The notes under the pieces are model-generated. The model was given only the letters and a program-made list of their open reading frames with translations, ran no database searches and had not been told where the DNA came from. This document shows, one piece after another, positions 19,984-40,519 of a stretch of DNA of 62,891 nucleotides. Numbering within the stretch: position 1 is the first letter of the stretch; every line of letters starts with the position of its first letter. The DNA is from Bacillota bacterium. Lineage in GTDB: Bacteria; Bacillota; Sulfobacillia; JAJYWN01. Location: the NCBI GenBank assembly GCA_021791495.1, contig JAJYWN010000048.1, positions 1 to 62,891 of the forward strand, in the 5' to 3' direction. A program made the position numbers and the translations under genes.

Positions 19984-20295
19984 CTAACCGCCGCTGACCG
20001 CCAACGCCAGCCAGATTTCCGAACCGTCCGCCACCGCCGGGTTCTGGCCGTAAGGGACGTCCGTCCGATTCACGGTAATCAGAAGGAAAGGCTGCGCGGC
20101 CCCAAGGTCGTCGGCGACTAACCGACCCACAGCCGGCCCGCGGGAAGCACGCACGGCCGAAAGCACATCGGAGAGGCTAGGCGTGTCCGGAAAACAGAAC
20201 TCCTCCGATACCAGGCCCGCTTCGGCCGCCAGGGCGCCCAGGTACGTGACAGATACCTTGATCTTTCGCCGGACCGCCGGAGTATCTCCCACCAT
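19984..20295 (-). CDS. MoaD/ThiS-like sulfur carrier protein
   Basis: 103-residue ubiquitin-fold protein. It starts with KIKVSVTYLGALA, has a middle LLITVNRTDVPYGQNPAVADGSEI as in MoaD, and ends in VSGG, the double-glycine tail that is adenylated and thiocarboxylated in sulfur carriers. It lies 21 bp after the aldehyde:ferredoxin oxidoreductase gene on the same strand with GGGGAGG before the ATG, so it is likely co-made with it. MoaD supplies the dithiolene sulfurs of the pterin cofactor, which in the neighbour enzyme binds tungsten. Dedicated MoaD-like proteins beside such oxidoreductases are common in anaerobes. No MoaE or MoeB gene is in the window. Confidence 0.75.
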   Translation of the reverse strand: MVGDTPAVRRKIKVSVTYLGALAAEAGLVSEEFCFPDTPSLSDVLSAVRASRGPAVGRLVADDLGAAQPFLLITVNRTDVPYGQNPAVADGSEIWLALAVSGG

Positions 20296-23115: not shown

Positions 23116-24465
23116 TTAGGGAATCCACTGGCCAAGGTCCACCGGCGGATAGACCACGCGGCGGTAGTCGGCCGCTTTCTCCTTGGCCAGAGTGGCATCG
23201 ATGCCGACCTTGGTGTGCCGTCCCGAGGCATCGGTGGTGGGATCGTTTTCCATTCCCTGGGCGTACGGGACGGTGAAGACGTCCCGTGACCAATCGACCC
23301 TGGTGGAAAGGGCCCATAGGATGTCGGCCGGGTTATGGATGTCCACGTCCGGTCCCACGATGACCGCCATCTTGATGTTCACGTGGGTCATCAGTGCCGC
23401 CAGGGCCACATTCTTCGGCTCGCCCTCATTCTTCTTATCGACCTGGATCACAGCCATGAACCCGCCGGAATACGGCGTCAGGTGCACCGCTTTCACGTTC
23501 GGCGACACATGGCTTACGAACTGCCGCAGCATGGGTTCGCGCGGCACGATGTTACCAATGTACACGTGCTCGAAGGATGCCGGGATAATCGTCTGGAAGA
23601 TGGGGTTCTGGCGATGGCAGATAGCCGTCACTTCGATGACTGGGGTCCGGTATCCCTCGCCGTAGTGCCCGGTGAACTCGGCCAGAGGCCCTTCGTCCAC
23701 TCTCTCTCCCGGTACGACGAAGCCTTCGATGAGAATCTCGGCGAAAGCCGGCGCTTCCAGGGGCACGGTGGCGCAAGGAGCCACTTCCACGGGTTCGCCG
23801 CGCAACGCTCCGGCGATGCCGATTTCATCGTACTCCACGCGCACCCCCGCGGCGATCATGATGCGGGGGTCCAAACCAATGGCCATGCAGATCGGAAATG
23901 GCTGTCCGGCCTGCTCGGCTGCCTGGTGGAAGCGGTTGATGTGTCGCCAGGCGTTCATCATGAGAGCCAGGCGGTTGCGCCCCTGGACCTGCAGCCGGTT
24001 ATAGCCGTAGTTCTGCCGTCTCGTCTGGGGGTCTTTCGAAATCATCACGCCGCCGGTGATGTACTTCCCGCCATCTCCGGCGTTATGCATGGGGATGGGC
24101 AGGCGGCCCAGGTCTACTTGCTCTCCTGTCAGCACATGGTCCATGAACGCCCCCCGAGTCACCCGCGCCGATCCGACCGGGTTCGCCACGGCCTCCTCCA
24201 TCCGGTTGCTGATGTCCGGTATGGTGCATTCCATGGCCAGAGCGATGCGGGGCAGGGAACCCAGGATGCCTCCGACCAGGGGAATACCGGACGGATGGTC
24301 CGGGTTCGTGAAAATGGCCGTGGGACCACCTTTTACTAGAAGGGCCTGGACCACGGCGGGCGCTTCCAGATCCAGCTTGGCCGGGCGTTCGATCTGGATG
24401 ATCTGGTTGCTGGCCTTGAGCACGTCCAAGAAACCGCGCAGGTCTCGGAAAGACAAATCTCTCAC
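23116..24465 (-). CDS. UbiD family decarboxylase (prenyl-FMN dependent)
   Basis: About 449 residues, full length for UbiD. It begins DLSFRDLRGFLDVL, has KYITGGVMISKDP and NYGYNRLQVQGRNRLALMM (the Asn/Arg-rich metal and flavin region), then EFTGHYGEGYRTPVIEV carrying the conserved E-x-x-x-H-type acid region, and ends SRDVFTVPYAQGMENDPT. UbiD enzymes reversibly decarboxylate aromatic or unsaturated acids with prenylated FMN made by a UbiX partner, which is not in the window. Start set at GTG 24465; TTG 24456 behind GAGGTGAG is equally possible. It lies first in the minus-strand run that continues to the aldehyde oxidoreductase. Substrate unknown. Confidence 0.85.
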   Translation of the reverse strand: MRDLSFRDLRGFLDVLKASNQIIQIERPAKLDLEAPAVVQALLVKGGPTAIFTNPDHPSGIPLVGGILGSLPRIALAMECTIPDISNRMEEAVANPVGSARVTRGAFMDHVLTGEQVDLGRLPIPMHNAGDGGKYITGGVMISKDPQTRRQNYGYNRLQVQGRNRLALMMNAWRHINRFHQAAEQAGQPFPICMAIGLDPRIMIAAGVRVEYDEIGIAGALRGEPVEVAPCATVPLEAPAFAEILIEGFVVPGERVDEGPLAEFTGHYGEGYRTPVIEVTAICHRQNPIFQTIIPASFEHVYIGNIVPREPMLRQFVSHVSPNVKAVHLTPYSGGFMAVIQVDKKNEGEPKNVALAALMTHVNIKMAVIVGPDVDIHNPADILWALSTRVDWSRDVFTVPYAQGMENDPTTDASGRHTKVGIDATLAKEKAADYRRVVYPPVDLGQWIP

Positions 24466-24617
24466 CTCGACATTAGTCACCAAGTAAGTCGCAATATGTC
24501 GCAGATCGTCGCCGGCGGGCTCTTGCAGCCGCCCTGAATTATCGAATGCAAAGTTCAACAGAGGTGAACGCCAATCCTGCTATGAAGTCCTAATGCATGA
24601 TGTTCCCTGTTGCATAG

Positions 24618-24989: not shown

Positions 24990-26849
24990 TCAAACGGCCA
25001 TGGGGAAGTCCACCTGCGCCAAGAAGAGGTCCTGGTAGTTTGGCAAGGTCACCAGCTCTACGTATTCCACGGCTTGGGCCAGATCGGCCGCAGCCCGTCG
25101 CTTCTCAAGGGAAACCAGGGACAGGCAGGCGCCCACACCTGCCGCGTTGCCGACCGGCAGGTATTTCTCCCGCGCCAGTCTTGGGAACATACCAATGTCC
25201 ATGGCGCTGTTGGGGTTGATGGCCACGCCAAAAGCACCGGCCATGTAGACCCGGTCGATATCTTCGGCGCGAGTGTCAGTGGTCAAGAGAAGACCTTCGA
25301 TGGCGGAGCGGATGGCTGCTTTGGCCAACTGTAGCTGGCGGATGTCTCGTTGGGTAAAGGGGACGCCGCCCACGGCGAATTCCGGTCCGTCTCGCCCGCC
25401 TGCACTTGCTGTCACACCGGGATGCTCTTTCCGGAGCCGGCCGCGATAGTCCATAGCCCCGATTCTCAGAAGGACCGCCAGCAGGTCGATGAGACCAGCA
25501 CCACAAAACCCCGTCGGCACCCGGCCTGGGCCGACCACGTCAAACTGCACCCGGTCGCTTCCACCGCCCTCACCACCTGCACCATCCATCTCGCCCTCCA
25601 CCCAAACGCGGTCGATGGCTCCGGACAAGGCCCGCATCCCGCGTGACACGTGGCCGCCCTCGAAAGCCGGACCCGACGCGGCCGAACAGGAAGTGATGTG
25701 GCCATTCTTCACGATTGATATCTCGGTGTTGGTGCCGACGTCCAGTAAGAGGGCCGTTCCTTTGAACAACGAGAAACTAGTGGCCAACAAAGCCGCCGTG
25801 TGATCTCCGCCCACATATCCGGCGATACAAGGCGAAAGGTAAACATAGGCGCCCGGTGCGAAAACCAGTCCCAACTCGCGGGCTTTCACCTCCACCGGGC
25901 CACTGAGGCCGGGGGTGTAAGGGGCTTGGGCCAGTCCCTGCACATCAAGGCCTAGGAACAAGTGATGCATGGCGGTGTTACCCACTACCACCGCCTCTTG
26001 AACGGCATCAAGCGAGCAATTCTCCTGGTGGCATAGATCATCCGCCAGGGTGGCGATTCCTTTCACCGCCGCCTCGCGCAGTCTCACCTTTTCGGCCTCC
26101 CCAGATAAGGCGTATCCCAGCCTGGAAACCACATCCTCTCCAAATGGGATCTGGGGGTTTGGCGTCGCCCCGGAGTGTAGGATCTCCCCCGTTTCCAGGT
26201 CAACCAGGTACCCCGCCATCTTGGTCGTACCCAAGTCCACCGCCAGCCCCAGAAGCCGATCCCGGTGGGCGGACAGAGCAGTCACTTCAGGACGTCCCGT
26301 ATCCCGCAAGACGGCCCACCCGTGAAACCCGTGCCTGCGCATGAAAGACGGTAACGCTCGCAATACCAGGTAGTCGAAAACGTCCGCTCCCCCATGGGCA
26401 CCCGTAACGGCCTCAGCCAATCTATCCGCGTCCCCACGGTCCTCACCCAACCGCGGAGGCCTCATCTCAAAGGGTACCCACTGTACGGGCGGCCACGGTT
26501 CTACCGACTCCCACACGCCGGCGGTCTGTAGCCGGTCTCCGCCAGCCACGCGCTCCAGCACCACCTGTACGTCACCCAAGACCCGCGTCCGGCAGGCCAG
26601 GCGCCACCCTTCCTCCCGCGCCCGCCCTTTCCTAGCTATGAGTTCATACTCGCCTTCGTCGGCACCCGACACACCACCATCCAGAACCCTGACCGCACAC
26701 TGACCGCAGGTGCCCCGGCTGCCGCAGACGGTGCGGATGCCCCACGCGCCCAGATCGTTGCCCAGGAGCTTGGCGGCGTCGAAGATGCTGGTCCCCTCTT
26801 CCACTTCGATCTTCAAGCCGATGGGATGAAACTTCACCGTCCGGCGCAT
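24990..26849 (-). CDS. Reductive activator of corrinoid proteins (RACo/DUF4445, ASKHA with 2Fe-2S domain)
   Basis: 619-residue ATP-dependent activator that re-reduces inactive Co(II) corrinoid proteins to Co(I). The N-terminal domain is a plant-type [2Fe-2S] ferredoxin: C42, C48 and C51 in VCGSRGTCGQC plus C86. After a linker, the ASKHA ATPase-like domain runs from about residue 200 to 600: LGLAVDLGTTKMAGYLVD (phosphate 1), VVVGNTAMHHLFLG, LLLDVGTNTEI (phosphate 2) and GAFGVAINPNSAMDIGMFP (adenosine-type). This architecture is that of RACo and of MtvD/DhaF-like activators in acetogens. It is the last gene of the cassette, nine bases after the UroD-like gene. Its target is almost certainly the corrinoid protein at 35322-36014. 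Confidence 0.88.
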   Translation of the reverse strand: MRRTVKFHPIGLKIEVEEGTSIFDAAKLLGNDLGAWGIRTVCGSRGTCGQCAVRVLDGGVSGADEGEYELIARKGRAREEGWRLACRTRVLGDVQVVLERVAGGDRLQTAGVWESVEPWPPVQWVPFEMRPPRLGEDRGDADRLAEAVTGAHGGADVFDYLVLRALPSFMRRHGFHGWAVLRDTGRPEVTALSAHRDRLLGLAVDLGTTKMAGYLVDLETGEILHSGATPNPQIPFGEDVVSRLGYALSGEAEKVRLREAAVKGIATLADDLCHQENCSLDAVQEAVVVGNTAMHHLFLGLDVQGLAQAPYTPGLSGPVEVKARELGLVFAPGAYVYLSPCIAGYVGGDHTAALLATSFSLFKGTALLLDVGTNTEISIVKNGHITSCSAASGPAFEGGHVSRGMRALSGAIDRVWVEGEMDGAGGEGGGSDRVQFDVVGPGRVPTGFCGAGLIDLLAVLLRIGAMDYRGRLRKEHPGVTASAGGRDGPEFAVGGVPFTQRDIRQLQLAKAAIRSAIEGLLLTTDTRAEDIDRVYMAGAFGVAINPNSAMDIGMFPRLAREKYLPVGNAAGVGACLSLVSLEKRRAAADLAQAVEYVELVTLPNYQDLFLAQVDFPMAV

Positions 26850-26858
26850 GGGGTTACT

Positions 26859-27806
26859 TCACGCCCTTTCCGCGGCACGATACGCCCGCAAAAGGTTTTC
26901 GATCGGCACCTCGTCGGGCACCACGCCCACGGTAGTCCCGATGACGAGACCGCCCTCAGCCGCCACGCGCGACAGCCTCTGGGCCGCGTCCTCAATGGTT
27001 TTCGCCTTGCCGGAAGTAACTAGCGGCAGTGACAGGCCTCCAAGGAAGGCTAGCCTTCCCCGCCACTCTTCCGTCAGCCGGGCGGCGTCCATGCCGGCCT
27101 CGGGCTCAAGGGAGTGGACTCCATCGAAGCCAGCCGCCTCCAGCATGGCCAGGAGTGAGCCGATGGTGCCATCGCTATGGAAAACCGCGTAACCGCGGAG
27201 AGGCCCCACATCGGCCAATGCGGTGCCACGCCTCACAGCCTTCACCAGACCGGCCAGCCGCGTCCACAAAGGGACCAGGTCCCTCTCCAAAGACCGTGGC
27301 GATAACATCAGACCACTGGCGTGGGCCACGTCTTCTCCGAGGACCACCCCGTCCACCCCAGCCGCCAATGCCACCGCCGCCTGCTGCCCCGCCCGTTCCG
27401 CCTGAACCGCCAACAGATCGGCGGCTCTTCTAGAGTCGGCCATGACTCTCAGCGCCTCTTCCCATCCCAGATCCACGGTCAGTCCTTGAAAAGGCCCGTC
27501 GATTACGGCCCATACGAACAGGTCGCTCCCCGCCAGGCGGCGGGCTTCTTCGAGCCAGGCTGGGCCGTGGCTCCCTGGGAGGCACTCTCCTACGCCGGGG
27601 TGGACGGCAATCATGTCTGAGCCGAGGGCGAGCATGGCGGCTTGGTGCCGCTCTCCCGCCGCCGTCTGCTCTGTCGACGGGGGCATGGACTCCATAGTAA
27701 GAAGTCGGCGAATCAACCCATCGGCCAGTCGGAACTCGCCTCTGGCCGGGCGGTCCGGTCGCCCGTGCCCGTCGAGAGCCGCGCGCACACGCTGTCGGCC
27801 CGTCAT
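26859..27806 (-). CDS. Uroporphyrinogen decarboxylase-family methyltransferase-like protein
   Basis: About 315 residues of the URO-D / MtaA-MtbA-CmuA barrel superfamily. The start MTGRQRVRAAL at 27806 is the family's usual N-terminus; earlier ATGs (27830, 27887) are possible. Core segments are GVDGVVLGEDVA, LVPLWTRLAGLVKAVRR, GYAVFHSDGTIGSLL and FLGGLSLPLV. In coenzyme-M methyltransferases the loop after the sixth strand carries a zinc-binding HxC; here it is HSDG with no Cys, so thiol methylation like that of MtbA is unlikely. UroD-like proteins of this kind occur in corrinoid methyltransferase clusters of acetogens, where their role is unclear. It sits directly before the activator gene. 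Confidence 0.7.
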   Translation of the reverse strand: MTGRQRVRAALDGHGRPDRPARGEFRLADGLIRRLLTMESMPPSTEQTAAGERHQAAMLALGSDMIAVHPGVGECLPGSHGPAWLEEARRLAGSDLFVWAVIDGPFQGLTVDLGWEEALRVMADSRRAADLLAVQAERAGQQAAVALAAGVDGVVLGEDVAHASGLMLSPRSLERDLVPLWTRLAGLVKAVRRGTALADVGPLRGYAVFHSDGTIGSLLAMLEAAGFDGVHSLEPEAGMDAARLTEEWRGRLAFLGGLSLPLVTSGKAKTIEDAAQRLSRVAAEGGLVIGTTVGVVPDEVPIENLLRAYRAAERA

Positions 27807-28047
27807 GGCCGCCACGTTGCCCTGAGCCATGGAGTTGTCCGGCTGGCAGCTTCTACTCATCCTATCTGAACTGTAGGTTCCCATCATGGAATGCCCTCAG
27901 GTAACTCCGGCAGCATGTGTCTCGGCCGAGAATAGCTTCCGTCGCCCGCCACAGGGCCATCACACGTCCATCCAGCAGGTGGAGGGTGGCGGTCGCCCGC
28001 CACCCGTCCAGCGCTTTGACCGTCTACTACTTGCTTTGACCGTTTTG

Positions 28048-29076
28048 CTACTTGATGTAGTCGTTCGTGTAGTAGTTGCTGGCATTCTCCGGATTCTTCA
28101 GGAAACCATTGTCCTTCAGGATCTTGATGGTGCGATCCCAGTCTTCTGCGGCCTGCCAGCCATAGGGCTTGTCCTTCGTAGCGTCGGTGTGGAACAGCTT
28201 GATAGTCTGCGCCACCTGAAGCCGAGTGACATCCTTCTTCAGTTTCTCCGGGAAAAGACCCTGGATGAGGTCTGCGGCCTCCTCGGGGTTCTTGACGGTA
28301 AAATCTACGCCCTTCTGAATAGCCCGGATCATTCCCTTTACGACATTGGGATTCTTCGCCACGTAGTCCTGCGAAGCCACCAAGCCATGTGCCAGAATGT
28401 TAAAGCCGAAATCGGCTATGGAGATAGTCGGGAACTTGTTTCCGGTCTGGGCCGTCAGAAGCGGAAGGTCGTTGGTTGCATAGGCCGACAGAAAGTCGAC
28501 ATCGCCTTTGAGAAAAGCGTTGTACTTGGCTCCTTGATCGGTGATGACCAACTTGACGGACTTGGGATCAACTCCATTGGCTTTCAGGAAGGGTCCCAGT
28601 ATTTGCCCGAGAGTCCCACCCGCGGTATCCACCATTGACTTGCCCGCCATATCCGCCGGTGAATCGAGTTTGGTGCCGGGCCGTGCCATCACTATTTGGG
28701 GCGACTTTTGCAGGAAGTCGGCCACCATGGTCAACTTCATTCCCTTATCTCGCGCGAGAACGTAGTCGTTAGCGGTAATGTAGGCAAACTGATCCTGGCC
28801 AGTGACCAATAACTGGGTGGGAATCGCCTTTTCTGACCCTTCCTCGATGTTTACGTCCAGCCCTTCGTCCTTGAAATACCCCTTCTGCTGTGCCACGAAA
28901 AGAGGCGCGTACTCTCCTTTGACGAGCCAACTGAGGCGCAGATTCACTTTGGTCAGTTCCTTGGTCGTCTTCTGGCTCTTGTTGTTGCTCGAGCAGCCCG
29001 CGATGGCAACGGAGAGAACAATCACCAACAAGCTCACGAATACCCGGTTCCGCCACTTCCTAGCGCTTCTCCTCAT
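28048..29076 (-). CDS. ABC transporter substrate-binding lipoprotein (NMT1/THI5-like, SsuA/TauA class)
   Basis: 342 residues. A basic N-terminus, a hydrophobic segment and the lipobox VAIAGC at residue 27 show a lipid-anchored surface protein. The mature part begins NLRLSWLVKGEYAPLFVAQQKGYFKDEGLDV, then EEGSEKAIPTQLL, typical of the NMT1-like domain that binds taurine, aliphatic sulfonates, or thiamine pyrimidine precursors. It is made with the permease and ATPase of the same operon, although an amidohydrolase and a flavoprotein gene lie between them. ATG with GGGAGGT upstream. The ligand is probably the compound metabolised by the cassette, a small organic molecule with an N-methyl group by hypothesis. 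A short near-duplicate of GCTTTGACCG lies just after the stop. Confidence 0.88.
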   Translation of the reverse strand: MRRSARKWRNRVFVSLLVIVLSVAIAGCSSNNKSQKTTKELTKVNLRLSWLVKGEYAPLFVAQQKGYFKDEGLDVNIEEGSEKAIPTQLLVTGQDQFAYITANDYVLARDKGMKLTMVADFLQKSPQIVMARPGTKLDSPADMAGKSMVDTAGGTLGQILGPFLKANGVDPKSVKLVITDQGAKYNAFLKGDVDFLSAYATNDLPLLTAQTGNKFPTISIADFGFNILAHGLVASQDYVAKNPNVVKGMIRAIQKGVDFTVKNPEEAADLIQGLFPEKLKKDVTRLQVAQTIKLFHTDATKDKPYGWQAAEDWDRTIKILKDNGFLKNPENASNYYTNDYIK

Positions 29077-29130
29077 TGCTCTCTACCTCCCTCACAAAGC
29101 ATTCTTCGATCGCCGATACCTGCTGCTCCA

Positions 29131-29820
29131 TCATGACCCTTCCTCCTCCACCAAATCGACCTCGCCCTTAGAAGCGCCAGAGCCTGCTGCTTCTTGTAGG
29201 CCCAGTGCCTCTTGCCCTTGCTTCATCCATGAAGCCACCTGAGCTACCCTGATACCCAACTTGCGGACCGAGTCCATGCCGATGAGATCTTCCTTCACAC
29301 CGTCGCCCGGTTTGTCGTGCGAAACCACGTAAGCTCCTGAATAGCAATCAAAGTCCCCGCCGCCCACCACCACCATCCCCCGGGCCATGAGGGAATGGAT
29401 CATGGCCGAGCATGTCAACTCCTGGCCCCCATTCCGGGAACCCCCAACAGCTATGACACCACCCACCCGGTTGCGCAGAAGGCCCCGGTACACATGGTGA
29501 AGTGGCCGCCAGCGGTTGAGGAAGGTCTGCAACTGACCGCTGAAGCTCATCCCGTACACCGGAGAGCCAATGATATATGCGTCTGCCCAGACGATGTGTT
29601 CATACAAGCCCTGCATGTCATCCTGGGTGTGACACAGGCTGTTGTTCCTCTTGCAGTAATCACAATGGATGCAAGGCCCTATGGTTTTGCCCCGTAGAGA
29701 CAGAAACCGGGTTTCGACTCCAGGTACTCCGGCTGCAGCAGCCAAAGCTTCCTTGACACTATACTCGGTGGCGCCTCGGCGAGGGCTGCCACTGATTCCC
29801 AATACCTTGACCAAACTCAT
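29131..29820 (-). CDS. Iron-sulfur flavoprotein (Isf-like, NADPH-dependent FMN reductase fold)
   Basis: 229-residue flavodoxin-fold protein. The phosphate-binding loop for FMN is GISGSPRRGATEYSV at the N-terminus. A compact cysteine motif follows: C50, C53, C56 and C63 (C-x2-C-x2-C-x6-C), as in the [4Fe-4S] iron-sulfur flavoproteins first described in methanogens. Further flavin contacts are SPVYGMSFSGQL and AVGGSRNGGQE. Such proteins shuttle single electrons between ferredoxin and other carriers. Inside this cassette it is the obvious candidate to supply low-potential electrons to the corrinoid activator. ATG 29820 abuts a G-run; TTG 29814 behind GGGGGGATGAG may be the real start. A truncated relative occurs at 38879. 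Confidence 0.8.
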   Translation of the reverse strand: MSLVKVLGISGSPRRGATEYSVKEALAAAAGVPGVETRFLSLRGKTIGPCIHCDYCKRNNSLCHTQDDMQGLYEHIVWADAYIIGSPVYGMSFSGQLQTFLNRWRPLHHVYRGLLRNRVGGVIAVGGSRNGGQELTCSAMIHSLMARGMVVVGGGDFDCYSGAYVVSHDKPGDGVKEDLIGMDSVRKLGIRVAQVASWMKQGQEALGLQEAAGSGASKGEVDLVEEEGS

Positions 29821-29870
29821 CCCCCCTGGACTTTGGCAAACTGAAACTGCGTCTAGCCTGGCAAGGACGG

Positions 29871-31301
29871 TCACTTCTTTTCGTCCAGGAAGAGGGACGG
29901 CCACGGCTCCTCCAGGAACGTCACCAGATGCCTGATCCGGTGCCGCCACCGAGAGTGGATTTCGTCCATCAGGCCCTGCTCGTCGAAAGCAATCATCTTG
30001 CCGTTTAGGAATATGGCCTTTCCATCGACGATGACGGTTCTAACGCAACTGCTGTCAGCCGAGTACGCAACCTGTTCGACAAGATTGTTTAGCGGCATCA
30101 ACGGCAAAGACGACCCGTCCAATAAGACGATATCGGCGCGAGCCCCAAGCTCAAGCCCCTTTGATTGGCCCCCTCGCGAGACGATCGCCGCGCCGCCCAG
30201 GGTCGCCATTCGGAAAGCCTCGGCAGCCGTCACCCATTTGCGGTAATCGGGGTCATTGCGGTGCAACAAGCTCGCCATTCTCAAGGGTCCAAACATGCTT
30301 TCCGAACCGCCGGTCCCCAACCCATCCGTCCCCAAGGCCACATTCACCCCGGCATCCAGCAGCCTCCTGACTGGTGCAGGCCCATTCCCCAGTCTCAAGT
30401 TGCTCACCGGGCAGTGAACGACGGATGCGCCGGCGGCGGCCACGGCATCAATTCCAGGGTCGTCGATGTGGACCGCGTGAACTAAGCTCAGGTTGAGGTC
30501 GGGGGATAGGAGTCCCGTGTCTTCCAACACCGCGACTGCCGAACGACCGTGGACCTTTCGGCACGAGTCGGAAGACCGCCGGCTTTCCACAAAATGCATG
30601 GTTATGCCCAGGGAATGCTTGTCGGCAAGTTCCTTGGTCTTTCGCAGCAGATCGGCAGAGCACCTATCCGGTGTTGACGGGCCGAGCATCATGCCGACGC
30701 GGGATGGTCTTCCCTTGAACCAACCCGCCATCTCATCAAGAGCGGACCCTATCTTGGCAGCTGAGAGGCGGCCGTCTTCCAGCTTCTCCTTGACCCAGGA
30801 CGGAACATCAAAAGGCAGGGTGCTGACGTAGGGGAGGTCACGAACCAGGGGCGCCACCTTAGCTCGTATGCCTGCCCGCTGATAGGCCTCGACCACCGGG
30901 ATGATACCTGCTGGTTCGGTTTGATTGGGCAGTCTCACATGGTCGACGACGGCAGTCACTCCCGACCGGATCATCTCTGCCGCGCCGGCAAGGACTACTA
31001 ACTTGCTGAGTTCGGCATCATCGGGGAGTGGCAGAAGCAGGGACTGCAGCATCCAAAGCTCCAGAGGAAGGTCGGCGGGCACACCTCGCAACAGACCATG
31101 CGTCGAGTGGGTGTGGGCATTGACCAGACCAGGGATGGCTATGAGTCCGGAGGCATTGATAATCTCCATGCCGGGAGCGGGCTCGATGGAGGACTCGACC
31201 CGGGTTACCAGGCCTTCCTCCACGAGGATGTCTTTGACTGACAGGTGATTCTCCCCGGCGGCGCTCCCTCTGTGGACAATCGCTCCCTTGATCAGCATCA
31301 C
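29871..31301 (-). CDS. Amidohydrolase, SsnA/TrzN/cytosine-deaminase-like
   Basis: 476-residue metal-dependent hydrolase. The metal site starts with GLVNAHTHSTHGLLRG (HxH) near residue 65; further ligands are in TMHFVESRR and LVHAVHID, and the catalytic Asp is in LGTDGLGTGGS. This is the subclass that deaminates or dechlorinates N-heterocycles (triazines, guanine, S-adenosylhomocysteine). ATG pair at 31301 with AGAAGGAGG upstream. It sits between the ABC ATPase and iron-sulfur flavoprotein genes of the corrinoid cassette. It may open or deaminate an N-methyl heterocycle to release the methylated amine for the MtmB-like enzyme. That pathway order is inference. Confidence 0.85.
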   Translation of the reverse strand: MMLIKGAIVHRGSAAGENHLSVKDILVEEGLVTRVESSIEPAPGMEIINASGLIAIPGLVNAHTHSTHGLLRGVPADLPLELWMLQSLLLPLPDDAELSKLVVLAGAAEMIRSGVTAVVDHVRLPNQTEPAGIIPVVEAYQRAGIRAKVAPLVRDLPYVSTLPFDVPSWVKEKLEDGRLSAAKIGSALDEMAGWFKGRPSRVGMMLGPSTPDRCSADLLRKTKELADKHSLGITMHFVESRRSSDSCRKVHGRSAVAVLEDTGLLSPDLNLSLVHAVHIDDPGIDAVAAAGASVVHCPVSNLRLGNGPAPVRRLLDAGVNVALGTDGLGTGGSESMFGPLRMASLLHRNDPDYRKWVTAAEAFRMATLGGAAIVSRGGQSKGLELGARADIVLLDGSSLPLMPLNNLVEQVAYSADSSCVRTVIVDGKAIFLNGKMIAFDEQGLMDEIHSRWRHRIRHLVTFLEEPWPSLFLDEKK

Positions 31302-31364
31302 AGCGGCGGACAGCCTCCTTCTACGCCACGCGACCCCACTGCCGGGCCTTCCCTGGACTTCGTT

Positions 31365-32168
31365 TCAGGAGAGGATCCCTTGGTTGACAAAAGTGTCCCT
31401 GACATTCGCCACGAACTTCTGAAACTCGGGTGTATCCTTGACCTTGAGGCTGCGGGGGCGGGGGATATCTTTGAGATCAAGCAGGCTAAGTATCCGTCCA
31501 GGCCTCTTTGACATCACCAGGACCCGGTCAGCCAGAAAGACCGCCTCATCGATGTTGTGGGTGATGAAGAGCACGGTATTTCGAGTCTGCTGCCAGATTT
31601 GGACGAGGTCGCTATTCATCTGCTCTCTCGTCAAGGCGTCCAAGGCTCCGAAGGGCTCATCCATCAGGAGCAGGGGAGGGCTGGTCACCAGGGCGCGGCA
31701 GATGGAAACTCGTTGCCTCATGCCCCCCGATAGTTCGTAGGGGTAGCGTTGTTCGAAACCCGACAACCCAGACATCTTCAGAAGGTCCAAGGCCTTTTGC
31801 CGGTAGAGCTCGACCGGCGCGAGATGCTTTATCTCCACAGGCAGGAGGACATTCTGCAGGACTGTGCGCCAATCAAGCAGCACATCCTGTTGGAAGACAA
31901 AGCCCAGCTTAGTATAGGGCTTTTGCACCTTCTCGTCTCCGACGAAGATCTGTCCGGAAGTCGCCGGCAACAAGCCGCTCACCATCATGACCAGCGTGCT
32001 CTTCCCGCAACCACTGGGGCCCACGATGGACAGGAACTCTCCTTCCCTGACCTGGAGAGATACGTCTTCCAGCGCACGCATCGGCCCGTTGGAGGTTTCA
32101 TAGGTCTTGCTGACCCCATCCAACCGGACAGGCAAACCGCTGCTCAGTTTACTCTCCACAGCACCCAC
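31365..32168 (-). CDS. ABC transporter ATP-binding protein (SsuB/TauB class)
   Basis: About 267 residues. Walker A GPSGCGKST, signature LSGGMRQR, Walker B LLLMDEPFGALD and switch ITHNIDEA are intact, and the family marker DALTREQM follows Walker B as in nitrate/sulfonate/taurine importers. GTG start at 32168 chosen because TTAGGAGGGG lies six bases upstream. It overlaps nothing and lies 33 bp after the permease gene, so the pair is co-transcribed. It powers the importer made of the permease at 32202 and the NMT1-like binding protein at 28048. A fragment of a paralogous ATPase survives in the chimeric pseudogene at 38879-39116. Confidence 0.9.
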   Translation of the reverse strand: MGAVESKLSSGLPVRLDGVSKTYETSNGPMRALEDVSLQVREGEFLSIVGPSGCGKSTLVMMVSGLLPATSGQIFVGDEKVQKPYTKLGFVFQQDVLLDWRTVLQNVLLPVEIKHLAPVELYRQKALDLLKMSGLSGFEQRYPYELSGGMRQRVSICRALVTSPPLLLMDEPFGALDALTREQMNSDLVQIWQQTRNTVLFITHNIDEAVFLADRVLVMSKRPGRILSLLDLKDIPRPRSLKVKDTPEFQKFVANVRDTFVNQGILS

Positions 32169-32201
32169 GACTACCCCTCCTAATCCGACCACGGTGCATC
32201 A

Positions 32202-33017
32202 TTACCTTGCGGCGGCCTGTCTGCGCTGCGCACGATTGGGATCTCCCTTGATAACCAGGCCCTCCAGGCCGTCGATCAGGTAGAACAGGATGATTCCCAT
32301 GACCGAGAGAAGCACCAAGATACTGAACACCATGGGCGTGTCAAGATTAGATGCAGCCACGACTTGCCAATAGCCAAGACCTTGGCCCGCCGCGACGTAT
32401 TCGCCAACCACGGCACCCACCACAGCCAGCGTGATCCCCACTTTGAATCCCCCGAAAATGGCGGGCAGCGCTTTTGGCAGGCGAAAACGCCAGAACTGCT
32501 GGGATCCGGTCGCTCCCAAGGAACGAGCCAGATACAGCATCTCCACGCTGACGGCCTGGAGCCCGATAACGGTGTTAATCACGATCGGGAAGAAGCACAC
32601 CAAGAAGGCCACCACCAGCTTCGGGAGCAATCCGTATCCGAACCAGGCAACCAGGATGGGAGCCAGGGCCACCTTGGGTACGGCCTGCGCGGAAACGAGA
32701 AAAGCGTAGAACGCTTTCTCCAAAGGAGGAATGTAGACGACCACAACAGCCAGAGGAACAGCCACGACAACGCCAAGGAGAAACCCGATCAGAACTTCAT
32801 AGAGAGTAACCCAGCTCTGAAACAGTAGCAGGTGAATCTTCTCGAGAGTGGTGCCAATGATGACAGAAGGCGCCGGCAAGAGGTAAGTGGGGGTTCTGAA
32901 AACGCGAACCAGGATTTCCCACAGCAATATGCCTATGACAGGCAGGAGTACGGTTATATAGTTGGATTTTAGCCATTTCCAGAGCCGTCCAGCTCCGTTC
33001 TCCTGGCGTTGTGACAA
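32202..33017 (-). CDS. ABC transporter permease (SsuC/TauC class)
   Basis: 271-residue membrane protein with about six hydrophobic segments. It has the BPD_transp_1 loop ARSLGATGSQQFWRFRLPKALPAI, which docks on the ATPase, and a late GEYVAAGQGLGYW segment seen in sulfonate/taurine/thiamine-precursor permeases. TTG start at 33017 behind GGAGGTG. Cell-membrane channel of the cassette importer. It directly follows the methyl-tetrahydrofolate methyltransferase gene (39 bp), tying uptake to corrinoid methyl transfer. Confidence 0.9.
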   Translation of the reverse strand: MSQRQENGAGRLWKWLKSNYITVLLPVIGILLWEILVRVFRTPTYLLPAPSVIIGTTLEKIHLLLFQSWVTLYEVLIGFLLGVVVAVPLAVVVVYIPPLEKAFYAFLVSAQAVPKVALAPILVAWFGYGLLPKLVVAFLVCFFPIVINTVIGLQAVSVEMLYLARSLGATGSQQFWRFRLPKALPAIFGGFKVGITLAVVGAVVGEYVAAGQGLGYWQVVAASNLDTPMVFSILVLLSVMGIILFYLIDGLEGLVIKGDPNRAQRRQAAAR

Positions 33018-33056
33018 CCTGGAACACCTCCAGTTTTCCGTCGTCCTAGGGCCTCT

Positions 33057-33905
33057 CTATTCCCGGCGCCTTTCTCTGACGAAGCTCAGGAATCGGCGAG
33101 TTGCACCCTTCCTGCCGGCAAGCATGTCCGACGAGCGTACAACATCCACGATACCCGCCTTCAAAGGATCGGCGATGCAAGCCGTGAGGCCGTAGGCGAT
33201 GGCCATCGCCAACAAATTCATGTTCAACTGATCGCGCTCCGGCAGGCCAAAGGATACGTTGCTTATGCCGGCCACGGTCCTTACCCGCAATTTCCTGCCC
33301 AGTTCCTCCAGAGTGTCCAGGAAAGCTCGCCCAGCCATGGGGTTCGACCCAACCGTCAGGACAAGAGGATCAACCAGGACTCTGTCTGCTCCAATCCCCA
33401 TCTTGGCGCAGGACTCGAGGATGCTTTCGGCGATCTCCACACGGGAACTCACATCATACTTGATGCCTCGCTGGTCGAGGCACAGGGCGACGACCATAGA
33501 GTCGTAGTCCCGGACCAGGGGTAGGATCTCGTTTCTTGACCTTTCCTCGCCGTTGACGGAGTTGACCAGCGCCCTGCCGTGCAAAACGGACAGCGCCTTT
33601 TCGATAGCCCTAGAGTTGCTGCTGTCCAGGCACAGGGGCACATCCAGTTCTGATTGTATCGCCTTCACCACGGCCGCCAGGGTCTCCACTTCATCGAGGC
33701 CGGGGAGGCCCGCGTTTACATCGATGACGTCCGCGCCTGACTCGGCCTGTTTCCGAGCCTGGGAAACTATGGTCTCGTAGTCATGACGACGCAAGGCGTC
33801 GGCGTACCGTTTATTCCCGGTGGGGTTCAACCGTTCCCCGATGACCACCATCGGGCCGCCGGGTTTGAACTCAACCTTGGCACTCTCAGTCCCTATCCAA
33901 TCCAT
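33057..33905 (-). CDS. Methyltetrahydrofolate:corrinoid methyltransferase (MtgA/AcsE-like, pterin-binding)
   Basis: 282-residue TIM-barrel enzyme of the pterin-binding family. Landmarks are VVIGERLNPTGNKRY, then SGADVIDVNAGLPG, then PLCLDSSNSRAIEKAL and LVNSVNGE, which form the tetrahydrofolate pocket with its conserved Asp and Asn residues. In acetogens and desulfitobacteria, such enzymes (AcsE, MtgA, MtvA) move the methyl group from the methylated corrinoid protein to tetrahydrofolate or back. Here it follows the MtmB-like gene by 30 bp, and shows that the methyl acceptor is probably tetrahydrofolate rather than coenzyme M. ATG after ATAGGAGTGAG. Confidence 0.88.
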   Translation of the reverse strand: MDWIGTESAKVEFKPGGPMVVIGERLNPTGNKRYADALRRHDYETIVSQARKQAESGADVIDVNAGLPGLDEVETLAAVVKAIQSELDVPLCLDSSNSRAIEKALSVLHGRALVNSVNGEERSRNEILPLVRDYDSMVVALCLDQRGIKYDVSSRVEIAESILESCAKMGIGADRVLVDPLVLTVGSNPMAGRAFLDTLEELGRKLRVRTVAGISNVSFGLPERDQLNMNLLAMAIAYGLTACIADPLKAGIVDVVRSSDMLAGRKGATRRFLSFVRERRRE

Positions 33906-33935
33906 GAACTCACTCCTATCAACTGCCGGCCGATA

Positions 33936-35306
33936 CTACATCTCGACCTTCAAACCCATTTGGGCCAACTCGCGGGTCACATTCCCCACCATGGCCTCCC
34001 ACTCGGGCTTAGGCTGGAGCTTCTCCACGTCGAACAACTCCTGGAAGCTTCCCCCCAAAGGTGGGTGCGGCAAGAGCTTCTCGTACTTCGGGATTAGCTG
34101 TTCCAGAATCTCATTGCCCTGCTCTCGGGTCATGCCGGCGGCAGCCTTGAACACCGCGGCCGAATACCAGCATTCCAACGGAGTCAAGTGGTTGATCACC
34201 TTGCCGCCAGCCGACCGGGGCCCGGTGCTGGCGGACGCCCCGGAGACGGTGAGCACGATGTGTCCGGCCGCGAGTTCGTACAGAAATGCCTCAGTACCTG
34301 GACCGCAGACAGACTCCACGATCTTGGAGATAACAACGTTGGTGTTTCTGGCCAGCGCTTGAGTGGATGTTCCTAGGGCCCACAGACCTTCACGCCCGCA
34401 GTTGCCGTTGTAGCGCAAGTCCATCATGCTGCCGGCGGCAAAGGCCGCACTGTGGACCGGGAACTGGAGCAGTGTGCTGGCAATGTTGGCGACGGCAGCT
34501 CCCTCGGGAGGCCCAGCATAGCCGCCTATCATGCTGGGAGTGCCACTGCGGATAAGTCCTCCGGCGTTAAGTGCTTGCACAGCCTTGTGCAAGGCGCTGT
34601 AACTGGTCTTTAACTCAAAGGGCGAAAGCACCAGCGCCACATCGGTGAAGGTGTTGCCCACGTTGAAGGCGCCCAGTTGCGCATGATAGGTGGTACTCGA
34701 CTGAATGCCCACAGTCGGCATGCCAGGTCGCGAGACCTTCCTCAGGACTTCATCTCGCTTGGCCACTTCTAGCGAGCCGACGAGAGTCTCCAGGGGCGTA
34801 TTGGCGAGAACTTTCTGCCCGTAGGCGGTGATCAGAGAAGGGGTCTCTAAGACATCGATCAATCTGTTGCTGGCGATACCTTCCAGAAGTCTGCTCCAGA
34901 TATCCTCGTCGGCGGCAATGGCGAGAGGTGATTGGTATAGTGGCTTGATCGAGTCCTCCGGTCTGCGGCTGTACATGGTGACCTGGTCCAGCCCGCGACC
35001 CAGGGTTATCTGAGACCGAGCGTTCATGAGGCTTTGTTGGAGCTCCTTCTCGCTCACTTGAACTATCCGTTCGGTATCCTGGCACAGCATCCCGACTTCG
35101 TGTGCCAGCTCGTACCCGGCCTGGAAATACCTGTCCAACAGGTCGTCATCGGTCGCTATGGGCTGAGCGGGATCACAGGTGCGCGTCAACCCATATTTTT
35201 TCAGTTTCTCGGCAATGGCCTTGGGCACGACCTTCGAGTCCCAATCCTTCACCTTGCAGACCGGGCCGTTGTGCGCTCGTTCAAGAATATCGAGTATACT
35301 GATCAT
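33936..35306 (-). CDS. MtmB-family (monomethylamine) methyltransferase homologue without pyrrolysine
   Basis: 456-residue protein whose whole length follows the MtmB family: ILDILERAHNGPVCKVKDWD at the N-terminus, YFQAGYELAHEVGM, RKVSRPGMPTVG, FELKTSYSALH, MIGGYAGPPEGAAV, and a C-terminal KYEKLLPHPPLGGSFQELFD. MtmB of methanogens transfers the methyl group of monomethylamine to a corrinoid protein with the help of pyrrolysine, encoded by in-frame UAG, in a segment MT-O-TDS. The equal-length segment here reads NTFTDV, so Phe220 takes that place and the frame has no internal UAG. Non-pyrrolysine relatives are well known for MttB (quaternary amines) but I know of little on MtmB. Substrate is therefore unlikely to be simple monomethylamine. 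Alignment is from memory of the family. Confidence 0.75.
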   Translation of the reverse strand: MISILDILERAHNGPVCKVKDWDSKVVPKAIAEKLKKYGLTRTCDPAQPIATDDDLLDRYFQAGYELAHEVGMLCQDTERIVQVSEKELQQSLMNARSQITLGRGLDQVTMYSRRPEDSIKPLYQSPLAIAADEDIWSRLLEGIASNRLIDVLETPSLITAYGQKVLANTPLETLVGSLEVAKRDEVLRKVSRPGMPTVGIQSSTTYHAQLGAFNVGNTFTDVALVLSPFELKTSYSALHKAVQALNAGGLIRSGTPSMIGGYAGPPEGAAVANIASTLLQFPVHSAAFAAGSMMDLRYNGNCGREGLWALGTSTQALARNTNVVISKIVESVCGPGTEAFLYELAAGHIVLTVSGASASTGPRSAGGKVINHLTPLECWYSAAVFKAAAGMTREQGNEILEQLIPKYEKLLPHPPLGGSFQELFDVEKLQPKPEWEAMVGNVTRELAQMGLKVEM

Positions 35307-35321
35307 CCGAGCCCCCCCCTT

Positions 35322-36014
35322 TCAAGCGAAGACCAAGGTCTGTTCCGGTTTGGACTGGGAACGCTTCAACCGCATCAGCTCTTCGCAGAGCTTCACCGCG
35401 TCCTGGGCTGTACGGCCATAGCCATCTGCCCCGATCTGTCGGGCCCATTCCGGTGTTACCGGGCCGCCCCCAACTACCACGAAATACTTCTCCCTCTGCC
35501 GGCTATCAACCAGATACTTGATGATCTCTTCCTGATAGTAGGCGGACGTAGACATCAGCGCGGACAGGGCAAGGATGTCCGCTTGGACCTTGTCCGCCTC
35601 ATCCAAAAACCTGTTCGAAGGGACGTTCACTCCTACGTCCACGACCTCAAAGCCATTGGCCGCCAGCAAAGCGGACACCAAGTTCTTTCCAATGTCGTGG
35701 ACGTCACCGGCAACCGTGCCGATAAGAATCCTGCCTTTCCTGGACTGGGGCGTGCCCTGTCTCTTCAGAACAGGAAGCAGAACGTTCATCATAGCCTTCA
35801 TTGCATCGGCGGAAAGCATCAACTCCGGCAGGTAGATCTCGAAGTTGGCAAACCGCTCCCCCACTAGTCTGATGGCTTTGGCGCCGCCCTCGTTGAGTAC
35901 CCGCATGGGATCCAAGCCCGCCTCCATGGCCGCGGTCGTGGCCTTCCCAGCGGCATCTTCCTCACCATCCAGGACTGCTTGATAGACGGCCCCAATGATG
36001 TCCTCTCCAGCCAT
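35322..36014 (-). CDS. Corrinoid (cobalamin-binding) protein, MtmC/MtbC-like
   Basis: About 230 residues. An N-terminal four-helix cap (residues 1-90, with LPELMLSADAMKAMMNVLLP) covers a Rossmann-type B12 domain. The lower-ligand motif GTVAGDVHDIGKN places H106 as the base-off axial ligand of cobalt; VDVGVNVPSNRF and VVGGGPVTPEWA form the rest of the corrinoid site. It carries the methyl group between the MtmB-like enzyme (gene 15 bp downstream) and the tetrahydrofolate methyltransferase. ATG 36014 follows AGAAGGAGG; the frame is open upstream but that part is not similar to the family. Reactivated by the RACo-like protein of the same operon. Confidence 0.9.
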   Translation of the reverse strand: MAGEDIIGAVYQAVLDGEEDAAGKATTAAMEAGLDPMRVLNEGGAKAIRLVGERFANFEIYLPELMLSADAMKAMMNVLLPVLKRQGTPQSRKGRILIGTVAGDVHDIGKNLVSALLAANGFEVVDVGVNVPSNRFLDEADKVQADILALSALMSTSAYYQEEIIKYLVDSRQREKYFVVVGGGPVTPEWARQIGADGYGRTAQDAVKLCEELMRLKRSQSKPEQTLVFA

Positions 36015-36129
36015 GCTCCAACCTCCTTCTCTAAGGTGCTCTTTCTGATGTCCCAGCGCCTGGTGGATCACAACTGCTCGGCCGACCCCGTCCCGTATCC
36101 TCAAGGAAGTGGGCCCAACCCCGTCTTCC

Positions 36130-37383
36130 TCACCCGCATAGCTCAAGTGCCGTCAGGGCATACACCTTCGTGGCGGCCAGCATGTCTTTTTTGGGAATCG
36201 GACAGCGCCTGGTGGGTCCGTACGTCACCGACGGGATACCCATCTCGTTAAAGGGGTTGGTGTCTCGCCACATGCTCGAAAAGGGCGCCTTTGTCGGAGG
36301 CAGCTCTCTTGCCAAGACCGTACGGTGTGCTCCCTTAATGGCCTTGATCATGGCCTCAGCTCCCACGGCCTCGTAGCCCCGACGGTACAGGAACAACTCG
36401 ACCCGGCCCTCCACTCCCAGACCACGCAACACGCTCTCGAGCTCAGTTCTGGGCTCTCTGGGGTCCAATCCAGGAGGCAGCCTGACGTCAAGATACAAGT
36501 GGCAGATTTCGGAACCCTTAGTTATGTAGTAAGGCTGTCCCCCCCTGACTGCTGAGATCTGGACTTTCGGTACCACCTCTCCCAAGGGGGAGTGGTACGT
36601 CCTCTGCGACTCGTACCGGGCCGCCCATCTTTCAATTTCCTGAATCAGGTATGAGGTCTTCACAAAAACGTTGGGGCTGTTGACCGACAGCTCACGTTCC
36701 AGCCATGGGGTGTAGGTGATCTTCCCATAGACGGTGATCTTGAAAAAGGCCTTTCCAGCTTCCATAGCCGCCAGAGCGAAATCAGTGCCCTCCGCCACCA
36801 GGGCGTAATCGGCTGCGATGCCTCCGTGAGTCAGAAGATATCGGGTACTGAAATCCTTGCTGTGGAAACTCGGACCCTGGAATTCGTCGACCGGCTCCAA
36901 GCCGGTTTCACCGCACGAGGCCGTCAGGCAGATGGAACCGCCAAGCCTGACCCCGCTCTCTTTGATGGCCTTTGCCGCCATCAGGAAGCAGGCCAATGGT
37001 CCCTTGTCGTTTTGCACCCCTTCACCCATGAAGCAATCCTTCTCGACCCAAGCGGAAGAGAAGAACCGCTCCTCCGGATGAACATGCATCAAGGCGTCAT
37101 CAGGTGACACGGCTGTATCCAAGTGCGCGTTAAAGACCAGGTCCTTCCCGCCCCCGGTGCCTCTCAAGGCACCCACCACATTCGGCCTATCGGGCGAGAA
37201 ACTCACCATACGCGGCTCAAACCCGTTTTCTTGCATCCAGGAGTAGACGAATTCGCCGGCCTGTCTTTCTTGGCGATAGTGACTAGCTATGTTCCCCAAG
37301 TCCAGGATCAGCTTGTACAGCTCGTCCGCATCGATCTTCTCAAGAACCCTCGCTGACCCGGTGCCTGAACTTGTCTGCCCCAA
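36130..37383 (-). CDS. M20 family peptidase/deacylase, first gene of the corrinoid cassette
   Basis: 417-residue zinc hydrolase. Motifs are LVFNAHLDTAVSPDD (metal His and Asp), GEGVQNDKGPLACFL (bridging Asp), TASCGETGLEP (general-base Glu) and late TKAPFSSMWRDTNPF. The central dimerisation domain is present. It differs from the ArgE/DapE-type copy at 17306 in having Asn (QNDKG) next to the bridging Asp. TTG start at 37383 behind GGGAGGG. As the promoter-proximal gene of the cassette it may cleave an amide or peptide bond in the imported substrate and release an N-methylated product. Catalytic class is clear; the role in the pathway is inference. Confidence 0.82.
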   Translation of the reverse strand: MGQTSSGTGSARVLEKIDADELYKLILDLGNIASHYRQERQAGEFVYSWMQENGFEPRMVSFSPDRPNVVGALRGTGGGKDLVFNAHLDTAVSPDDALMHVHPEERFFSSAWVEKDCFMGEGVQNDKGPLACFLMAAKAIKESGVRLGGSICLTASCGETGLEPVDEFQGPSFHSKDFSTRYLLTHGGIAADYALVAEGTDFALAAMEAGKAFFKITVYGKITYTPWLERELSVNSPNVFVKTSYLIQEIERWAARYESQRTYHSPLGEVVPKVQISAVRGGQPYYITKGSEICHLYLDVRLPPGLDPREPRTELESVLRGLGVEGRVELFLYRRGYEAVGAEAMIKAIKGAHRTVLARELPPTKAPFSSMWRDTNPFNEMGIPSVTYGPTRRCPIPKKDMLAATKVYALTALELCG

Positions 37384-37452: not shown

Positions 37453-37807
37453 TGTGTTTCATCGATTCCCTTTAACACCAGATAAAAAACGTAGGTCCGG
37501 AATCACACCTTTCCGGCGGCTACGGTGGCCGCCTCGCCGATGCTCTTAGCACCAAAGGGTGACCCCGCAAGCCATGCCCTTGGCTCGAATCAGCCGCCTC
37601 TTCCCCGGCCCGGACCGCGATGAGACCGTCCCTGCGGCGGCGTCGGCAAGCCGTGCCATGAGCCGGGCCACTCGTTATGCAAACAAAACGGTACTTGACC
37701 TAATGGCCCGTTTGCTTTCAAACTGGAATGAGAGCAACCATCTACATCCGATTCTGGCAGTTCAATCCCGGGAGGATACCGCCATAACTGAGAAGACACT
37801 GCGTAGG

Positions 37808-38557
37808 ATGAAGTCCGTCAACTCTATGCCACTGCATCGGCAGGTTATCGAAGCTCTATCTGAGTATCTCGAGGCAGGTGGAGTCCCAGATGACAACCGG
37901 CTCCCATCAGAGAACGTGCTGGCGGCCCAGATCGGCGTGAGTCGATTGACCATCCGCGAGACTCTATTGGCCATGGAACGTGAGGGATACCTCACCAAGA
38001 AACACGGTGTCGGCACTTTCGTCCATCCAAGCGCCCTTCGAGCGAAAACGAGGATTGAACAGGTCGTTGGCTTTTCGGAGCTCCTTTCTCAGGGCGGCCA
38101 CAACCGCGTGAAGGTAATCGGTCACAGGTATACCGGAGTTGCCAACGAGTGCGCGGCTCTCCTCGGAATCCAGCCCGACGCTATATTGTTGTGTTACCGC
38201 CGGACGTTCCTCGTCGACGAGCAGCCGGCAATTTACACGACTATCCGGATTCCGGAAACGATTATCGGTAAAGAGATGACGGTTTCCGGTGACAATGAGT
38301 CGGTTTTCAGTCTCGTCAAGAGAGCTTCAGGGGAGGAAATCACTCACCGTGTCGCCTGGCTAAAAGCCAGGAAGGTTGATGAGGAAGTCGGCGAAGCTCT
38401 TGCAATGCCTGTTGGCGAACCGGTTCTGTCATGGGATTCGGTCCTATATAATTACAGGGATCGTCCGCTGGCACAGTCGTCGGTCTTTTTCAACACCGAT
38501 GTGATTCCCATCTGCACCGTCGGGATGACCGTAGTAGCTGATCGGTCCTCGACATAA
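37808..38557 (+). CDS. GntR family regulator with UTRA domain (HutC subfamily)
   Basis: About 249 residues. The N-terminal winged helix starts MPLHRQVIEALSEYLEAG and has LPSENVLAAQIGVSRLTIRE as recognition helix, then LTKKHGVGTFV as wing. The C-terminal UTRA ligand domain runs from ELLSQGGHNRVKVIG to AQSSVFFNTDV. Such repressors sense small metabolites or catabolic intermediates. Start set at ATG 37808; the frame is open to 37559 but the extra residues lack similarity. It is divergent from the corrinoid cassette, whose promoter carries heptamer repeats, so it is the likely pathway-specific regulator. A good terminator follows (38575-38610). Confidence 0.85.
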   Translation: MKSVNSMPLHRQVIEALSEYLEAGGVPDDNRLPSENVLAAQIGVSRLTIRETLLAMEREGYLTKKHGVGTFVHPSALRAKTRIEQVVGFSELLSQGGHNRVKVIGHRYTGVANECAALLGIQPDAILLCYRRTFLVDEQPAIYTTIRIPETIIGKEMTVSGDNESVFSLVKRASGEEITHRVAWLKARKVDEEVGEALAMPVGEPVLSWDSVLYNYRDRPLAQSSVFFNTDVIPICTVGMTVVADRSST

Positions 38558-39116: not shown

Positions 39117-39118
39117 GG

Positions 39119-40504: not shown

Positions 40505-40519
40505 GAGGTGTCCCCGCCC

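Follow-up and report, generated by a model that had tools for sequence, protein, structure and literature searches.

A corrinoid methyl-transfer cassette with a pyrrolysine-free MtmB homologue and candidate ring-processing enzymes in a Sulfobacillia bacterium

Which compound would be served by a gene cassette in which a homologue of the methylamine methyltransferase MtmB stands among the parts of a corrinoid methyl-transfer system, an importer and several hydrolases? The question is raised by positions 24990-37383 of contig JAJYWN010000048.1, from a Bacillota bacterium of the class Sulfobacillia (GCA_021791495.1); the whole stretch of 62,891 nucleotides that was analysed is referred to here as the window. 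The source genome (4.2 Mb in 81 contigs) has a single MtmB-family gene and also encodes acetyl-CoA synthase (ACS). On sequence comparisons, we consider it moderately likely that the cassette carries out the O2-independent demethylation and ring processing of a methylated amino-substituted N-heterocycle of the purine, pyrimidine or imidazole type. Within that class, a purine-derived substrate (a methylxanthine, a methylguanine or a methylated aminoimidazolecarboxylate) is tentatively put forward as the most likely one.

The MtmB-like methyltransferase and its partners

The cassette comprises eleven open reading frames (ORFs), all on the minus strand and separated by gaps mostly of 9-160 bp, with a GntR-type regulator encoded divergently. 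This layout had been described in an original prediction made from the sequence alone, and our analysis confirmed its ORFs and family matches. The same prediction had proposed three-component methyl transfer with an activator, and all four parts have profile matches: the predicted system is complete, with a first methyltransferase (MT1), a corrinoid protein (CoP), a second methyltransferase (MT2) and a RACo-type activator in colinear order. MT2 is of the pterin-binding kind and exceeds the NF005719 cut-off of 259 bits, and the base-off motif DxHxxG of the corrinoid protein is present as DVHDIG. It is important to note that these methyl-transfer roles are assigned by homology, catalysis being inferred. 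The cassette also has the importer of its own that had been foreseen, made up of an ATP-binding cassette (ABC) permease, an ATPase and a binding protein whose nearest solved relative is the thiamin-pyrimidine-binding protein ThiY (3ix1, E 3e-22), the ligand of which is a formylamino-pyrimidine.

MT1 matches PF05369 from end to end (cut-off 25 bits) and has no in-frame stop. In its alignment to Methanosarcina barkeri MtmB, no TAG is found in frame and Val199 occupies the position of pyrrolysine (Pyl) 202, while Glu229, Glu259, Gln333 and Tyr335 of MtmB correspond to Leu, Gly, Ile and Glu, respectively. The pyrrolysine codon is absent from all 26 relatives of the protein; four of the five MtmB site positions are altered in every one of them, Glu259 being retained in five, and the clade has an invariant residue set of its own. 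The only solved relatives are structures of M. barkeri MtmB, and a six-sequence model (mean predicted local distance difference test score 64.5) resembles 1tv2 (Foldseek E 5.5e-26, template modelling (TM) score 0.82); because confidence in its barrel core was low, this model was used for the fold only. Since Pyl202 and its polar partners have been replaced, monomethylamine chemistry would be closed to this enzyme, and an assignment as a methylamine methyltransferase was rejected.

The UroD-like gene of the cassette proved the weakest assignment of the original prediction: the protein has no Pfam match and reaches only the MtaA/CmuA model (E = 6e-4). At the site of the zinc HxC motif it carries HSDG, and it has two cysteines; a role as a zinc-dependent MT2 is not supported, the HxC motif being absent. 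No kinship was measurable between this protein and the UroD proteins that adjoin other MtmB genes of the clade, and its single-sequence AlphaFold model was uninformative.

A pyrrolysine-free MtmB clade and its genomic neighbourhoods

In a tree of 50 MtmB-family proteins, from which the sequence of MtqB, a characterised non-pyrrolysine homologue, was absent, the MT1 of the window falls in a 27-row clade with a support of 100/100. This clade is distinct from the group of pyrrolysine MtmBs (100/100) as well as from several further clades that lack pyrrolysine. It is represented in the window's phylum, in Synergistota, in a Coriobacteriales metagenome-assembled genome and in the archaeon Ca. Hecatella. 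A genome-wide scan with the single protein returned only four relatives, and the orders and classes around the other matches were too small to add much.

Neighbourhoods of up to 20 kb were taken for each MtmB place, and their recurrent neighbours were named by profile search. Around the clade they include SsnA proteins over the cut-off, subunits of xanthine dehydrogenase (XDH), PucR and a xanthine/uracil permease, as well as a PnrA-type binding protein, BMP nucleoside-type ABC proteins, D-hydantoinase, a YgeW-like carbamoyltransferase and a PreA-like dehydrogenase. Of the 26 clade loci, 14 have core purine genes no more than 10 kb away, as against 2 of the 22 other MtmB loci (none of seven pyrrolysine loci and two of the remaining 15), with a Fisher p of 0.0017 that overstates the evidence because the rows are related; an 8-kb version gave 13/26 against 2/22 (p = 0.004). 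The purine-locus label requires eight changes on the MtmB tree. In a genome of the window's own class (G402), a clade MtmB ends the run XDH-AllH-nitrilase-AllF-AllG-PF02133 purine permease-CoP-MtmB. In some genomes there are two to four MtmBs of the clade, which would suit demethylases specific for different ring positions. The remaining clade members probably act as N-methylpurine demethylases. The purine-locus link of the clade, together with the ThiY-like binding protein, favours the small N-methyl heterocycle that had been proposed as the substrate. That proposal came with the suggestion that three of the genes (MtmB-like, MtgA-like and SsnA-like) be sought together in other genomes. The full set of eleven genes was not found elsewhere among the sampled genomes, while its parts do recur in combinations.

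Several further arrangements were seen among the MtmB loci. In Ca. Hecatella, an importer related to that of the window (ATPase 52% identical) adjoins a clade MtmB, and the Ca. Hecatella orcuttiae genome (Bathyarchaeia; L034) has two clade MtmBs, the same importer class and a PnrA-type binding protein. Two loci from another non-pyrrolysine clade (L054 and L072) show the order GntR, CoP, MtmB and TRZ/ATZ amidohydrolase and have a BMP protein close by, a layout that parallels the window's, and L054 also has MtgA. One genome (G213; loci L050, L051, L059, L066-L071 and L084) is unusual in having expanded its MtmB family to eleven genes, which belong to several clades without pyrrolysine. Tandem near-identical copies of a pyrrolysine MtmB and its corrinoid protein were present in two genomes (L073 and L074), and MtmB-family fragments with several stops (G060:C1, near 999000) point to gene decay.

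Candidate ring-processing enzymes and the probable extent of the unit

The first gene of the unit had been read as an M20 hydrolase; the fold superfamily holds, but the nearest solved relative is 5-nitroanthranilate aminohydrolase, NaaA (5k8m; 46.9% identity over the full length, E = 4e-113 by phmmer). As in NaaA, the canonical M20 metal ligands are missing (Asp is replaced by Asn and the C-terminal His is lost), whereas a true M20 protein of the window (17306-18583) retains them. An M20 peptidase or a DapE-like deacylase was therefore rejected, and by homology the product is a relative of an aromatic-amine deaminase. NaaA converts an aromatic amino group to a hydroxyl with a divalent metal (PMC9814641), and its substrate is 5-nitroanthranilate (PMC10306065). 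More distant NaaA-like genes on plasmids (L097, L098 and L099) lie alongside genes for a luciferase-like monooxygenase (LLM), an isochorismatase and a flavin reductase, a set like the rut genes for uracil and suggestive of a heterocycle pathway; the plasmids are those of Acinetobacter and Paraburkholderia, and in Kozakia the set is present in part.

In the genome G286, a UbiD gene whose product is 56% identical to that encoded at 23116-24558 directly precedes a gene 65% identical to the NaaA-like one. Because the first gene of the cassette has such a UbiD neighbour there, the unit, to judge from gene order, probably reaches past 24990, where the original prediction had ended it, as far as UbiD. 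The ferredoxin, the aldehyde:ferredoxin oxidoreductase (AOR) and the MoaD-like ORF beyond may be part of it as well (Table 1). Longer spacers precede the UroD-like gene (160 bp), UbiD (431 bp) and the ferredoxin gene (248 bp).

The amidohydrolase of the cassette had been called SsnA-like, a label that proved loose: it belongs to the amidohydrolase family, but an identity as SsnA was rejected because it scores 120 bits where TIGR03314 requires 455.5. Its nearest solved relatives are methylthioadenosine/S-adenosylhomocysteine (MTA/SAH), 8-oxoguanine and triazine hydrolases, and its nearest sampled relatives (34-37%) adjoin XDH genes, or PucR, AllC, hydantoinase-like, PreA and AOR genes. Clade MtmBs have homologues of the window's AOR beside them in L043 (49%) and L051 (42%), a further homologue (39%) lies in the purine locus L104, and L051 has a 51% identical copy of the flavoprotein beside the AOR and near MtmB. 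A benzoyl-CoA-reductase-like role for the AOR was rejected, its nearest solved structure being a true AOR.

Regarding the gene calls, the ORF of the corrinoid protein is open to 36146, but a perfect AGGAGG marks an ATG at about 36014 as its likely start (230 aa), and the flavoprotein likely starts at about 29820 (229 aa); because the Shine-Dalgarno sequences place both starts later, the apparent overlaps of these ORFs are not real.

Table 1. Coordinates and assignments of the cassette genes, the adjoining genes downstream and the divergent regulator.
Feature	Position	Strand	Basis
GntR/UTRA-type regulator, divergent	37559..38557, probable start ~37808	+	GntR-family models, 82 bits, from ~residue 85
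NaaA-like deaminase, M20 fold, first gene of unit	36130..37383	-	phmmer vs 5k8m
Corrinoid protein (CoP)	35322..36014	-	PF02310/PF02607; MtgC-like 203 bits; DVHDIG motif
MtmB-family methyltransferase (MT1) without pyrrolysine	33936..35306	-	PF05369, 242 bits
Methyl-tetrahydrofolate:corrinoid methyltransferase (MT2, MtgA type)	33057..33905	-	NF005719, 272 bits
ABC permease, SsuC/SaoP class	32202..33017	-	PF00528
ABC ATPase, SsuB/SaoA class	31365..32168	-	PF00005; SaoA 236 bits; AGGAGG before start
TRZ/ATZ-type amidohydrolase, probable ring deaminase	29871..31301	-	PF01979 (Amidohydro_1)
Iron-sulfur flavoprotein	29131..29820	-	FMN_red; CIHCDYCKRNNSLC cluster motif in sequence
NMT1/THI5-type substrate-binding lipoprotein	28048..29076	-	PF09084, 164 bits
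Divergent UroD/MtaA-CmuA-like protein	26859..27887	-	TIGR01463, E 6e-4 only
RACo-type ATP-dependent corrinoid activator with 2Fe-2S domain	24990..26849	-	PF14574 (212 bits), PF17651, Fer2
UbiD-family decarboxylase, probably same pathway	23116..24558	-	TIGR00148, 312 bits, over cut-off
4Fe-4S ferredoxin-like electron carrier	22211..22699	-	ATG with AAGGAGG
Aldehyde:ferredoxin oxidoreductase (AOR), tungsten type, possibly in pathway	20317..22155	-	1aor, E 2e-118
Small MoaD/ThiS-like protein, 21 bp from AOR	19984..20295	-	assigned by reading sequence only

Other genes of the window and of the source genome were also noted. Right after the regulator, a cytosine-deaminase-class amidohydrolase (39056-40504, plus strand) could belong to the same pathway. 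Genes for sulfopyruvate decarboxylase alpha/beta-like subunits and an aspartate aminotransferase-like protein (40508-43207), with a D-cysteate sulfo-lyase/XcbE-like enzyme dependent on pyridoxal phosphate (PLP) (12850-14013), suggest a sulfonate metabolism (of cysteate or a coenzyme M-like compound) near the cassette. A row of MlrC/M81 metallopeptidase-like, amidohydrolase and canonical M20 genes (14115-18583) lies near an oligopeptide-type ABC transporter and a major facilitator superfamily (MFS) permease. The source genome has a second heteroaromatic locus (L106; C62:128000-147999), in which XDH-like genes stand beside TctC/TctA transporter genes, a UbiD (32% identical to that of the window) and an amidohydrolase (30%).

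Proposed pathway, alternatives and comparison with known systems

In the pathway that we propose, the ThiY-like binding protein and the ABC importer would take up a methylated N-heterocycle that carries, or would gain during its breakdown, amino and carboxyl groups. The MtmB-like enzyme, its pocket remade after pyrrolysine was lost, would offer the N-methyl group to the Co(I) of the corrinoid protein, from which the MtgA-type MT2 would hand it to tetrahydrofolate (THF), with RACo repairing Co(II) by means of electrons from an iron-sulfur carrier. The resulting methyl-THF may enter acetyl-CoA synthesis; it has an outlet because the source genome encodes ACS, a methyl sink that agrees with the original prediction of methyl transfer to THF for C1 metabolism. 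The NaaA-like enzyme and the TRZ/ATZ-type hydrolase are envisaged to strip ring amino groups by means of water, and UbiD to take off a ring carboxylate. One intermediate of clostridial purine fermentation is 4-amino-5-imidazolecarboxylate, and because it shares the ortho amino-acid arrangement of anthranilate, the NaaA-like enzyme followed by UbiD would give imidazolone. A pyrimidine such as 4-amino-2-methylpyrimidine-5-carboxylate suits the ring enzymes equally well. A wider proposal, which we hold as possible though doubtful, is that the clade consists of O2-independent corrinoid N-demethylases of methylated purines, present in multiple copies for different ring nitrogens (the copies within one genome could act at different ring positions), to which the window adds the NaaA-like enzyme and UbiD, possibly performing the clostridial aminoimidazolecarboxylate steps.

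Several observations weigh against this reading. The MT1 of the window stands on a long branch (0.7), with a best identity to its relatives of 46-47%, so its substrate may differ from that of the rest of the clade. At 12 of the 26 clade loci no core purine gene was found, partly owing to short contigs, and the marker proteins had been taken from clade loci, so detection is possibly biased towards the clade. In the cassette itself, genes for xanthine dehydrogenase, PucR and a purine permease are all missing (two matches to the XDH large subunit lie elsewhere in the source genome), and in the window the amidohydrolase alone has relatives at purine loci. Lastly, because NaaA has been characterised solely with a nitro-benzoate, a carbocyclic aminoaromatic acid would also be accommodated.

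Such an acid, for example of the N-methylanthranilate type, undergoing anaerobic corrinoid demethylation, deamination by the NaaA-like enzyme and decarboxylation by UbiD, is the least improbable of the alternatives, although we regard it as unlikely. The 47% identity to an enzyme that uses 5-nitroanthranilate (PMC10306065), the conserved UbiD-NaaA neighbourhood and the close AOR speak for it, but no benzoyl-CoA-type genes were seen in the window, the import protein resembles pyrimidine binders, and the relatives of both the MtmB clade and the amidohydrolase sit at purine loci. Demethylation of a quaternary amine or a simple methylamine, as by MtqB or MtmB, appears very unlikely: the only characterised non-Pyl MtmB, MtqB, does use tetramethylammonium and choline (PMC13044021), and the MT1/CoP/MT2/RACo arrangement is the layout of glycine betaine systems, but a betaine-type transporter is absent, the ring-processing enzymes would be left unexplained, the pyrrolysine network is gone and the clade is tied to purine genes.

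A marginally smaller chance is given to the run being two or more independent operons, one for a corrinoid methyltransferase and an unrelated one for a heteroaromatic acid. The three longer spacers, the presence of the whole set in no other sampled genome and the separate contigs on which G286 carries its NaaA-UbiD pair and its clade MtmB would agree with this, yet the NaaA-like gene and UbiD flank opposite ends here while being adjacent in G286, and the pair of flavoprotein and AOR also accompanies the clade MtmB of L051. The least probable alternative, if only slightly, is a creatinine/N-methylhydantoin pathway, in which a deaminase would yield N-methylhydantoin that is then demethylated and hydrolysed. 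Two deaminase-type hydrolases in the cassette, the cytosine-deaminase-like one next door and hydantoinases close to clade MtmBs are in its favour, but the cassette lacks a hydantoinase or a carbamoylase-type M20 (AllC/HyuC models are not among the matches of 36130-37383), and the NaaA-like enzyme and UbiD would have no role. Taken together, sarcosine, creatinine or simple amines, which the original prediction had listed among possible substrates, fit more poorly than purine- or pyrimidine-type compounds.

In the open literature we found no described counterpart of the cassette and no described system for the corrinoid-dependent demethylation of caffeine, methylxanthine or N-methylhydantoin; subscription papers were mostly outside this search, so an unseen report is possible. 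According to a study of 2026, no non-Pyl MtmB before MtqB had been given a demonstrated function, and of the roughly one thousand sequences the others are of unknown function; purines are not mentioned there (PMC13044021). The genes of the clostridial aminoimidazole steps were not identified in a 2012 genome study of C. acidurici (PMC3519856). If the purine reading of the clade is true, it would give much of the MtmB family a testable substrate class and would explain how N-methyl groups could be removed anaerobically from caffeine-like and nucleic-acid-derived purines, with the methyl group kept as methyl-THF. The NaaA/UbiD pair would be candidates for the aminoimidazole steps of anaerobic purine breakdown, which were measured in the 1950s.

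Compared with known systems, the cassette shares with the glycine betaine and quaternary amine systems known from acetogens and desulfitobacteria (MtgB-MtgC-MtgA with an activator) the three-component logic, the methyl-THF acceptor, the RACo-type activation and the MtgA/MtgC kind of MT2 and corrinoid protein; however, its MT1 comes from the MtmB rather than the MttB family, its importer is of the SsuABC/ThiY type, and it includes putative ring deaminases and, probably, a decarboxylase. With methanogen MtmB (1nth, 1l2q and 1tv2) it has in common the PF05369 family and the fold, whereas the counterparts of Pyl202, Glu229, Gln333 and Tyr335 are replaced, as is that of Glu259 in the majority of clade members, which branch separately. 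To our knowledge, no ring-processing enzymes go with MtqB of Methanococcoides. MtqB likewise belongs to the MtmB homologues that lack pyrrolysine and has a corrinoid protein of its own; it acts on tetramethylammonium and choline, but in an archaeal methanogenic setting (PMC13044021). NaaA is 47% identical from end to end to the NaaA-like protein and departs in the same way from the M20 peptidase ligands; it belongs to aerobic nitroaromatic catabolism, whereas the window copy lies beside a corrinoid methyltransferase in an ACS-encoding genome. The NdmA/B/C enzymes of Pseudomonas putida are O2-dependent Rieske oxygenases that N-demethylate methylxanthines and release formaldehyde; the system of the window would do the same proposed job on purine-type rings, but without O2 and keeping the methyl group as methyl-THF.

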